64,000 nt of DNA, taken from the NCBI RefSeq assembly GCF_003812745.1, contig NZ_CP033831.1, positions 1,550,001-1,614,000 on the forward strand. Reading direction: 5' to 3'. A program made the position numbers and the translations under genes. Under the pieces are notes generated by a model that saw only the letters and a program-made list of their open reading frames with translations, was not told the DNA's origin and did not search any database. The DNA is from Serratia sp. FDAARGOS_506 (GTDB taxonomy: Bacteria > Pseudomonadota > Gammaproteobacteria > Enterobacterales > Enterobacteriaceae). Shown here in pieces: positions 44,988 through 62,365 of this stretch. Within the stretch, counting starts at the first letter, position 1; each line of letters opens with the position of its first letter.

Positions 44988-45082
44988 GGAAGATCCTCGT
45001 CCCCGGTGGGGCGGCCGGACTTCAAATCCGGTTGGGGCCGCCAGCGGTCCTGGGCAGGTTCGACTCCTGTGATCTTCCGCCA
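44988..45082 (+). tRNA. selC: tRNA-Sec (anticodon UCA)
   Basis: 95-nt selenocysteine tRNA that differs from E. coli selC at only a few positions. The 5' and 3' acceptor arms GGAAGATC and GATCTTCC pair, the anticodon loop reads ACTTCAAAT with TCA, and the long variable arm (GGGGCCGCCAGCGGTC region) and encoded GCCA end are present. It is charged with serine and converted by SelA, encoded about 21 kb upstream. selC is a classic island integration site in enterobacteria, and the region downstream here looks like such a remnant. Confidence 0.97.
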
Positions 45083-60607: not shown

Positions 60608-61939
60608 ATGTGGTCTTTCCTTAAAAGCCGCTCGGACGCGCCGCAGGTCACCGATCAGCGGCAGATCGACGCCAGCTACAAATACTGGCGCATCCAGCTG
60701 ATGTGCACCATGTACATCGGCTACGCCGCGTTTTACTTCACGCGCAAAAGCTTCAACTTCATCATGCCGGCGATGCTGAGCGATCTGGGCCTGACGATGT
60801 CCGACGTCGGCATCCTCGGTACGCTGTTCTACATCACCTACGGCTGCTCGAAATTCATTTCCGGCATGATCAGCGATCGCTCCAACCCGCGTTACTTTAT
60901 GGGGCTGGGCCTGATCATGACCGGGGTGCTGAATATCTTCTTCGGCCTCAGTTCGTCGCTGCTGATGCTGGGTACGCTGTGGATCCTCAACGCCTTCTTC
61001 CAGGGCTGGGGCTGGCCGCCGTGCTCCAAAATCCTCACCAGCTGGTATTCGCGCTCCGAGCGCGGCAGCTGGTGGGCGATCTGGAACACCTCGCACAACG
61101 TCGGCGGCGCGCTGATCCCGCTGCTGGTGGGCTTTATCTCGCTGCACTTCAGCTGGCGTTACGGCATGATCATTCCCGGCATCATCGGCGTGGTGTTGGG
61201 GCTGCTGATGTGCTGGCGCCTGCGCGACAAGCCATCCACTCTGGGGCTGCCGAGCGTCGGCAAATGGCGCAACGACGCCATGGAGCTGGTGCAGGAATCG
61301 GAAGGCCAGGGGCTGAGCAACCGCGAGATCATCAAACGCTATGTGCTGACCAACAAGTACATCTGGCTGCTGGCGGTCTCCTACGTGCTGGTGTACATCG
61401 TGCGCACCGCGATCAACGACTGGGGCAACCTCTACCTGACGCAGGAAAAGGGCTATTCGCTGATGACCGCCAACTCGGCCATCTCGCTGTTTGAGGTGGG
61501 CGGCTTTATCGGTTCGCTGGTGGCCGGTTGGGGCTCCGACAAACTGTTCCGCGGCAACCGCGGCCCGATGAACCTGATCTTCGCCATCGGTATCTTCCTG
61601 TCGGTGGCGGCGCTGTGGCTGATGCCGGGCGTGACCTACCTGCTGCAGGCCTGCTGCTTCTTCGCCATCGGCTTTTTCATCTTCGGCCCGCAGATGCTGA
61701 TCGGCATGGCGGCGGCGGAGTGCTCGCACAAGGATGCGGCGGGCGCGGCGACCGGTTTCGTCGGCCTGTTCGCCTACCTGGGCGCGGCGCTGTCCGGCTA
61801 CCCGATTGCACGGGTGATGGAGATCTGGCATTGGAACGGCTTCTTCGTGGTGATTTCCATCGCCGCCTGCCTGTCGGCGCTGTTCCTGCTGCCGTTCCTG
61901 CGTGCGCAGACGCCGGCGCTGAAAACTGCCAACGCCTGA
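60608..61939 (+). CDS. uhpC: Hexose-phosphate sensor/transporter UhpC
   Basis: Organophosphate:phosphate antiporter-family protein, 443 residues (E. coli UhpC 439), twelve membrane helices. Family motifs: YAAFYFTRKSFNFIMPAML, SRSERGSWWAIWNTSHNVGG, GFVGLFAYLGAALSGYP. In E. coli it senses glucose 6-phosphate for UhpB and has weak transport ability. It resembles UhpC rather than UhpT. No uhpT follows; the next genes are a tRNA and chiA. Confidence 0.94.
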   Translation: MWSFLKSRSDAPQVTDQRQIDASYKYWRIQLMCTMYIGYAAFYFTRKSFNFIMPAMLSDLGLTMSDVGILGTLFYITYGCSKFISGMISDRSNPRYFMGLGLIMTGVLNIFFGLSSSLLMLGTLWILNAFFQGWGWPPCSKILTSWYSRSERGSWWAIWNTSHNVGGALIPLLVGFISLHFSWRYGMIIPGIIGVVLGLLMCWRLRDKPSTLGLPSVGKWRNDAMELVQESEGQGLSNREIIKRYVLTNKYIWLLAVSYVLVYIVRTAINDWGNLYLTQEKGYSLMTANSAISLFEVGGFIGSLVAGWGSDKLFRGNRGPMNLIFAIGIFLSVAALWLMPGVTYLLQACCFFAIGFFIFGPQMLIGMAAAECSHKDAAGAATGFVGLFAYLGAALSGYPIARVMEIWHWNGFFVVISIAACLSALFLLPFLRAQTPALKTANA

Positions 61940-62019: not shown

Positions 62020-62048
62020 TTGACGCCTATAACCGCCAGCAGTAAGAT
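62020..62048 (+). promoter_or_regulatory. Promoter of tRNA-Pro
   Basis: TTGACG (62020-62025) and TAAGAT (62043-62048) at 17-bp spacing, followed by a GC-rich discriminator (GCGCCCC), the pattern of growth-rate-controlled stable RNA promoters. Confidence 0.8.
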
Positions 62049-62059
62049 GCGCCCCGCAT

Positions 62060-62136
62060 CGGCGAGTAGCGCAGCTTGGTAGCGCAACTGGTTTGGGACC
62101 AGTGGGTCGGAGGTTCGAATCCTCTCTCGCCGACCA
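62060..62136 (+). tRNA. proM: tRNA-Pro (anticodon UGG)
   Basis: 77-nt tRNA with encoded CCA. Acceptor arms CGGCGAG and CTCGCCG pair, the anticodon loop reads TTTGGGA with TGG, and the T-arm is GGAGGTTCGAATCCTC. The sequence appears identical to E. coli proM. It stands alone with its own promoter and terminator. Confidence 0.97.
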
Positions 62137-62142
62137 CATTCG

Positions 62143-62172
62143 AAAAACCTGCTTTTAAAGCAGGTTTTTTTT
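62143..62172 (+). terminator. Terminator of tRNA-Pro (copy 1)
   Basis: AAAAACCTGC and GCAGGTTTTT form a 10-bp perfect stem; the T run continues to 62172. It starts 7 nt after the tRNA end. Confidence 0.95.
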
Positions 62173-62215
62173 CGCCCGTCGTTTATGAGGATGAGTACCT
62201 CCGCAGGAGGTTCGA

Positions 62216-62280
62216 GCCTCGCGGAGCGAGACAACGTTGCTTTAGCAACGGCCCGTAGGGCGCGCATCAGAGATGCGCGT
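62216..62280 (+). other. 65-bp hairpin-dense insert in a partial tRNA-Pro T-arm
   Basis: GGAGGTTCGA at 62206-62215 is the 5' half of the tRNA-Pro T-arm, and 62281-62299 is its 3' half plus acceptor end. The 65 bp between them contain four back-to-back perfect hairpins: CTCGC-GGA-GCGAG (62218-62230), CGTTGC-TTTA-GCAACG (62235-62250), GCCC-GTA-GGGC (62251-62261) and CGCGCATC-AGA-GATGCGCG (62261-62279). A fifth, ACCTCC-GCA-GGAGGT, lies just before (62197-62211). It could be a small mobile element that targets the T-loop or part of a structured RNA. Confidence 0.7.
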
Positions 62281-62305
62281 AATCCTCTCTCGCCGACCAC
62301 ATTCG

Positions 62306-62335
62306 AAAAACCTGCTTTTAAAGCAGGTTTTTTTT
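62306..62335 (+). terminator. Terminator copy 2 in the tRNA-Pro repeat
   Basis: Identical in sequence to the terminator at 62143-62172, carried by the second repeat copy. It would stop transcripts that read through the first. Confidence 0.9.
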
Positions 62336-62365
62336 CGCCCGTCGTTTATGAGAATGAGTGCCTCC

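Follow-up and report, generated by a model that had tools for sequence, protein, structure and literature searches.

In E. coli, 22 tRNA-linked repeats (TLRs) have been described at ten loci, each of which ends in 18–19 bp of the upstream tRNA or rRNA (PMC8144298). This paper cites work of 1978 and 1999, the first description being that of 1978, and presents TLRs as elements that had no known function by 2021. It also states that the starvation phenotype originally claimed for a tyrT-tyrV repeat has since been retracted. Three TLRs that are linked to rRNA bind Hfq and CsrA (PMC8144298). For an rtT RNA, a 175-bp difference in repeat number has been tabulated (PMC2658671). In one E. coli record examined, an RtT RNA is annotated behind a tRNA-Pro gene, between eptB and dppA.

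The window analyzed here, a stretch of 64,000 nucleotides from Serratia sp. FDAARGOS_506, contains a tRNA-Pro(TGG) gene with an MFS transporter gene (60608–61939) on one side and chiA (62724 onward) on the other (Table 1). The chiA frame begins 588 bases past the end of the tRNA, and 13 Serratia records, with 92–100% identity, are nearest to its protein among named relatives. The region 62118–62202 is repeated at 62281–62365 with a spacing of 163, and 83 of 85 positions are identical, the mismatches being at 62190 and 62197. In either copy, the first 19 nt are precisely the 3′ end of tRNA-Pro, with a difference (T versus G) at the 20th base. Exact direct repeats in the window reach 72 nt, compared with at most 20 nt in 30 Markov sequences of order 1 and the same length. 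Each copy includes CCTGC-TTTTAAA-GCAGG plus a T run, and the repeat extends 30 bases beyond the T run. A generic terminator scan of the window did not report this duplicated hairpin, perhaps because A/T pairs extend the stem into the T run; the label "terminator" is therefore based on reading the sequence. The stretch GGAGGTTCGA (62206–62215), upstream of the second tail, also matches the T-arm of tRNA-Pro. When 62180–62299 was folded alone, an energy of -50.4 kcal/mol was obtained (z -2.9; 1 of 200 shuffles was as low), and GAGGAT was paired with ATCCTC of the tail. The consensus scan found two promoter-like sites over both strands versus 0.8 in shuffles, which is no evidence of function.

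Table 1. Features around tRNA-Pro(TGG), with positions in the window
Feature	Position	Strand	Basis
Promoter-like site TTGACG-17-TAAGAT, 11 bases 5′ of tRNA-Pro	62020..62048	+	Consensus scan
tRNA-Pro(TGG) gene	62060..62136	+	ARAGORN
First tail copy: the 19 nt of tRNA-Pro from the T-loop to CCA	62118..62136	+	Repeat comparison
One TLR unit, 163 bp	62137..62299	+	Sequence and repeat comparison
First terminator-like hairpin with T run	62143..62172	+	Inverted repeat, sequence; absent from generic terminator scan
RtT RNA, RF00391, whole model (1-130 of 130)	62171..62299	+	cmscan 71.9 bits, E 4.8e-14, cut-off 45
GAGGAT, base-paired with ATCCTC at 62282-62287 in the second tail	62187..62192	+	Minimum-energy fold
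GGAGGTTCGA, repeats the 5′ strand of the T-stem and the beginning of the T-loop of tRNA-Pro	62206..62215	+	Sequence; tracking across tRNAs
Core module, flanked by both halves of the T-arm copy	62216..62281	+	Models R1, R2
19-nt tRNA tail, second copy	62281..62299	+	Repeat comparison
Second terminator-like hairpin	62306..62335	+	Inverted repeat
GAGAATGAGTGCCTCC, remnant 5′ part of a further unit	62350..62365	+	End of 85-nt repeat

Five parts make up the repeated unit: the terminator-like hairpin, a 5′ strand with complementarity to the tail, a 5′ T-arm half of tRNA-Pro, a hairpin core, and the tRNA-Pro 3′ end. It scores above the Rfam gathering cut-off for RtT across the entire model, and its tail is identical at 19 of 19 nt to the tRNA immediately upstream, TLR tails being 18–19 nt long. 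The 248 bases from the first tail to the end of the repeat were matched at 60–80% identity in 3739 of 5426 E. coli genomes, and in 2456 of these the match covered 80% of the query or more. Like the E. coli TLRs (tyrT/tyrV rtT RNA, RF00391), the unit belongs to a type with the last 18–19 nt of the upstream tRNA as tail, the RtT structure, and tandem arrays. Unlike these, it is located on tRNA-Pro(TGG) beside chiA and includes a terminator-like hairpin, whereas the neighbors of the E. coli Pro case are eptB and dppA. The E. coli rRNA-operon repeats RrA, RrB, and RrF are likewise flanked by two terminators and repeat the tail of the upstream RNA, namely 18 bp at a spacing of 150 bp (PMC8144298). 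However, they are linked to 5S rRNA, and transcription as well as CsrA and Hfq binding have been demonstrated for them (PMC8144298).

The repeat of 85 nt with a period of 163 bp that starts at the last 19 nt of tRNA-Pro had been described in an earlier note on this DNA and was confirmed. The terminator that it assigned to the repeat was recovered as a hairpin with T run in each copy, but not by the terminator scan. Its comparison with the tyrT repeats of E. coli was right, as the RtT match of 71.9 bits indicates, and the pattern indeed is general, with RtT units carrying local tRNA tails behind many tRNAs. The idea of a second instance has been superseded, because ten E. coli loci had already been described (PMC8144298) and RtT is annotated behind an E. 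coli tRNA-Pro. Taken together, the locus is very probably a one-unit TLR/RtT repeat whose copy number changes by recombination, a level of confidence that does not extend to its origin or function. It is a new locus of an already known kind, and as a locus it is ordinary; what its core may be is the interesting part.

The chiA locus was compared within the genus, defined as grouped in the genome collection. A chiA match was present in 26 of 30 genomes, including the own genome, and in three cases the contig edge was reached before the tRNA. The number of units at the 23 readable loci (own included) differed, as at TLR loci: ten had no unit, ten had one, and three had two. One of the ten unit-free loci (L109 of genome G002) is a collapsed remnant, in which the T-arm half is fused to the second half of the tail at the common TCTCG, as if the core had been deleted. 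The unit-free loci retain one hairpin, and the 5′ remnant is present in some of them and absent in others. A second tail is present at 13 of the 23 loci, some 150–165 bases past the previous one. In L098 and L100, the two units are alike within each genome and different between the two genomes, as judged by eye. The occurrence of zero, one, or two units at this regular spacing fits unequal homologous recombination, whatever the order of the states. Variable copy number in other Serratia, which the earlier note had proposed to look for, was thus found. In two genomes of the same genus, a gene for a TumE-type toxin and its partner with an HVO_A0114 domain lie between tRNA-Pro and chiA (L107:469-1103, L117:2556-3196), and further genomes of the genus have a longer spacer there.

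Next to the window locus, the own genome contains many related units. RF00391 matches 23 times at E values up to 10, and 11 matches are above the cut-off. These are found behind tRNA-Tyr, Pro(GGG), Pro(TGG), and Lys, and weaker ones behind Ser and Arg. Two weak partial matches were omitted from scoring. Of the remaining 21, 13 end in 16–19 nt shared with the tRNA upstream of them (Lys, Pro TGG, Pro GGG, Ser, Tyr); four are mutated or degenerate, three are reversed behind tRNA-Phe, and one lies outside the compared sequence. More widely, RF00391 was found above the cut-off in 26 of 30 of the genus and 32 of 60 of the family. From the matches listed in the genus and family scans, 167 RtT units were taken that lie in 100 retrieved regions, which cover part of the same-genus matches listed. 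Two partial matches (G059 C11, G071 C4) and one unit without upstream tRNA were omitted, and 166 units were evaluated.

Among the matches listed, 136 of 166 units have at least 14 nt in common with the nearest upstream tRNA. For 39 other genomes, again among the matches listed, at least 14 nt of the own tRNA end were present in 129 of 159 distinct units, the median match was 18 for the cognate tail versus 4 for other tRNA types, only 1 of 1113 non-cognate comparisons reached 14 nt, and the own tail was strictly best in 136 of 159. The local tRNA is likewise reflected in the T-stem 5′ strand, which agrees with it over at least 9 nt in 111 of 155 units that have the motif (among the matches listed), and this tracking is weak for Tyr (7.8 for the own tRNA versus 7.2–7.3). 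Many units therefore contain the T-arm and acceptor 3′ strand of the local tRNA, split inside the T-loop. Pairing of the unit 5′ strand was strictly best with the own tail in 70 of 159 and at least equal in 108 of 159 units among the matches listed; the own tail was not best for Arg, and for two prolines the tail of another proline was slightly better. The 30 of 166 units that match their tRNA over less than 14 nt include, among those listed, many mutated copies of the right tail, and one is an artefact of a tRNA call that runs off the contig (G068 C11:526127). A unit behind tRNA-Ser(GCT) in G060 (L190) has a tRNA-Arg tail, perhaps because the Arg gene was lost. Because units with such tails were the training material of the RtT covariance model, they are overrepresented in the set; in all tallies, related sequences were counted as independent.

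At tRNA-Phe, the arrangement is reversed. The own genome has tRNA-Phe-linked arrays with an RtT-like core on the opposite strand (C2:780109-780701, L038 and L224; C2:1835926-1836181). Three units of about 161 bp follow its tRNA-Phe, and the exact 17-nt tRNA tail is present in two of them. Matches to this array at E 1e-5 or better, some of them partial, were obtained in 26 of 30 same-genus genomes. Examination of 31 loci revealed that the CCCGnAGGG motif downstream of tRNA-Phe is reversed in all 24 loci with a called tRNA-Phe and forward in none, and the exact 16-nt Phe tail is present downstream in 16 of these 24. Rfam reported RtT in only 3 of 15 Phe loci, at most at 24.8 bits, below the cut-off and on the strand opposite to the tRNA.

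For comparison of the cores, two models were built. R1 comprises 47 of 71 extracted forward TLR cores, with no Phe or dispersed members; over-extended, Ser-type, CAAAA-type, and some irregular cores were omitted by eye, and 38 chosen sources were searched. R2 comprises 21 distinct modules from 28 dispersed loci, with no tRNA-linked member, and was applied to 29 chosen sources; its members were picked by one pattern, which they therefore have in common by construction. The window core scores 65.2 bits with R1, a model from related TLR cores of other genomes. With R2 it scores 27.5 bits (E 1.8e-6, 62225–62282), and the next-best match in the window has E 0.11. R2 also finds cores behind Tyr, Lys, Ser, Arg, Pro, and Phe, one Tyr locus (L124) being about at background (12.5 bits, E 0.08). 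The R1 scores of Phe cores are 28–46 bits for the same genus plus one other and 19–26 bits elsewhere, and these cores lie opposite to the tRNA in 16 of 16 loci with a called tRNA-Phe (17 loci). With 20 dispersed loci, R1 yields 13.5–25 bits, compared with a best background match in the window of 14.4 bits (E 0.06); L263-L265, at 13.5 bits, are below this background. In the own genome, R1 gives E 0.006 for copies of a 780-bp repeat and E 0.5 for an ERIC-like copy.

R2 matches at E 1e-4 or lower were found in 50 of 148 genomes of the order, with a maximum of at least 33 per genome. When R2 was run on the whole own genome, the window core and the Pro GGG cores were not among the matches listed (150 of 4922 candidates scored). 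The dispersed loci are no blind sample, as they were chosen for matching the Phe unit, and an Rfam scan of 15 of the 20 gave no RtT match; Rfam on its own does not connect the Phe and dispersed loci with RtT. In the TLR cores, hairpin 2 covaries: at two of its five pairs, both sides have changed in 15 of 47 sequences. The AaHKsRNA22 family (RF02902) matches some dispersed modules, with 40.1 bits for L274 (cut-off 39.8) and 38.4 bits, below the cut-off, for L293; the window core reaches only 14.5 bits.

Two pairs of filled and empty sites outline a module of about 70–77 nt. The own genome has a dispersed repeat of some 780 bp that is non-coding and whose ends are inverted, as judged by eye; it occurs in six near-complete copies (one at C2:875554-876366, L293:938-1750) and several shorter pieces, and the six and one shorter piece carry the module. 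Another copy lacks exactly the module, reading GAGAGAGG-GG-AGTTGGC versus GAGAGAGG-ACAAAT...GAGTAA-AGTTGGC in the filled state. Neighboring units of a same-genus Lys array (L205) differ by a like insert (GTGAGA-G-CCTGCG versus GTGAGA-CAAAAG...GAGTAA-CCTGCG), which is located in the 5′ strand next to a classical core and outside the T-loop. An ERIC-like element of the own genome also carries the module. At three TLR loci (L217, L191, L164), the module is bordered immediately by GGTTCGA on one side and by ATCC or AATCC of the tail on the other, and these junctions may be read as insertion into a T-loop copy.

We hypothesize that the TLR core is a mobile hairpin module of about 70 nt (ACAAA-hairpin-TTTGAAC-hairpin-GGCCCGnAGGG-hairpin-GA(A/G)TAA) that is dispersed within the order and entered the T-loop of duplicated tRNA ends. 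The proposed settings are ERIC-like and other MITE-type repeats, the reversed position behind tRNA-Phe, and a T-loop target GTTCGA|ATCC, and we regard this reading, settings included, as having an even chance of being correct. The insertion point in the T-loop would account for a tail of 18–19 nt whatever the tRNA. Counting against the module are the Rfam results on the Phe and dispersed loci, the scores near or below background of three dispersed loci with R1 and of one Tyr locus with R2, the high E values of R1 in the own genome, the R2 listing for the whole own genome, the selection of the dispersed loci, the weak T-strand tracking for Tyr, and the exact Phe tail in 16 of 24 loci. For the classical GCGAG-type cores, including that of the window, common descent with the module is suggested more weakly, by scores below those of the CAAAA-type cores. 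Alternatively, old TLR cores might have been the source and have spread outward into the dispersed repeats. Some ERIC-like or dispersed elements among the ERIC and other MITE-type repeats of enterobacteria (for these repeats, see PMC2759123, PMC2229807) hold a module that matches the TLR core, but the TLR unit differs from them in its position behind tRNAs and in lacking terminal inverted repeats of that type. Our literature searches found no paper connecting TLR cores to ERIC or MITE inserts. The loci named ERIC here are presumably such elements. ERIC copies with inserts of about 70 bp are on record, and the insert itself may therefore already be published. The window unit by itself is one more locus, and what is possibly new is the nature of its center. 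The common module, the Phe reversal, and the filled and empty pairs make it testable whether the origin was a small non-autonomous element with the T-loop among its targets; if so, the RtT "RNA" family and the inserts of dispersed repeats would be a single family.

A duplicated tRNA 3′ end could also be what a lost phage or genomic island that used tRNA-Pro left behind as attL and attR, the main alternative of the earlier note. The stretch from the T-loop to CCA is a classic attachment-site position, the toxin gene pair lies between tRNA and chiA in two other same-genus genomes, and in E. coli NZ_CP027452.1 (L123 / L311) an IS3-family element separates two RtT copies behind tRNA-Pro. However, by its annotation the latter is an ordinary insertion sequence and not an integrase element. 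In addition, the repeat reaches far beyond the tRNA, through the terminator, and the intervening stretch is the RtT core, which is found behind many tRNAs, often in tandem. Of the 23 readable loci in the genus, the 13 that have a second tail show it at the regular short spacing, with no integrated or integrase-type element between the copies. Integration by a phage-type recombinase is unneeded and very improbable. Phages and plasmids were also considered as vehicles. In a distant blastn search, the 163-bp unit matched 4 of 50,697 phage records, namely three of more than 500 kb with Salmonella strain titles and one unannotated Salmonella phage record of 7.4 kb. It was present in 13 of 72,556 plasmid records; of the ten listed, seven exceed 240 kb and three of these are chromosome-sized. 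Both sets of matches were taken as chromosomal or unexplained, and neither as pointing to a vehicle.

Function offers two further explanations. The unit could be a conserved regulatory sRNA, e.g., one titrating CsrA like RrA, RrB, and RrF, with the tail retained as a processing signal. RrB, which is flanked by dual terminators and produced by read-through, is bound by Hfq and CsrA (PMC8144298), and Northern signals have been reported for two RtT RNAs in Actinobacillus (PMC4986893). The window has the same two-terminator layout, GGA can be read three times between the hairpins, and the core hairpin covaries. Nevertheless, the unit is absent from 10 of the 23 loci of the genus that could be read, the core has the opposite orientation behind tRNA-Phe, and the effects of deleting and of overexpressing the E. 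coli homologues were no more than modest (PMC8144298), so we consider a conserved sRNA possible but rather unlikely. It is still less probable that the duplication chiefly serves as insulation, shielding chiA from transcription of the tRNA by a second terminator. There are indeed two copies of the terminator-like hairpin, and the chiA frame follows 588 bases past the tRNA, but unit-free genomes with chiA likewise placed have a single hairpin (e.g., G013, G022, G029), and the Tyr units of the own genome show no such terminator.

For the recombining TLR/RtT repeat, the following course is envisaged. The unit would most likely have originated by insertion of a small hairpin element into the T-loop of a tRNA end that had been duplicated, and this insertion would set the tail at 18–19 nt. 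Arrays would then grow, shrink, and homogenize via homologous recombination between repeats. Transcripts that pass the first terminator would contain the RtT RNA, which would be cut behind the tail by tRNA-end processing enzymes and would end at the second terminator. For RrB, the repeated tail has been suggested to be a processing signal (PMC8144298). A later role for the RtT RNA is possible but unproven.

Two further tRNA genes were noted. A selenocysteine tRNA gene is located at 44988–45082 of the window. The own genome has a second tRNA-Pro(TGG) (C2:1663695-1663860, L006), the last gene of an Arg-His-Leu-Pro cluster, behind which an RtT unit is represented by its 5′ part alone and breaks off after the T-arm half.
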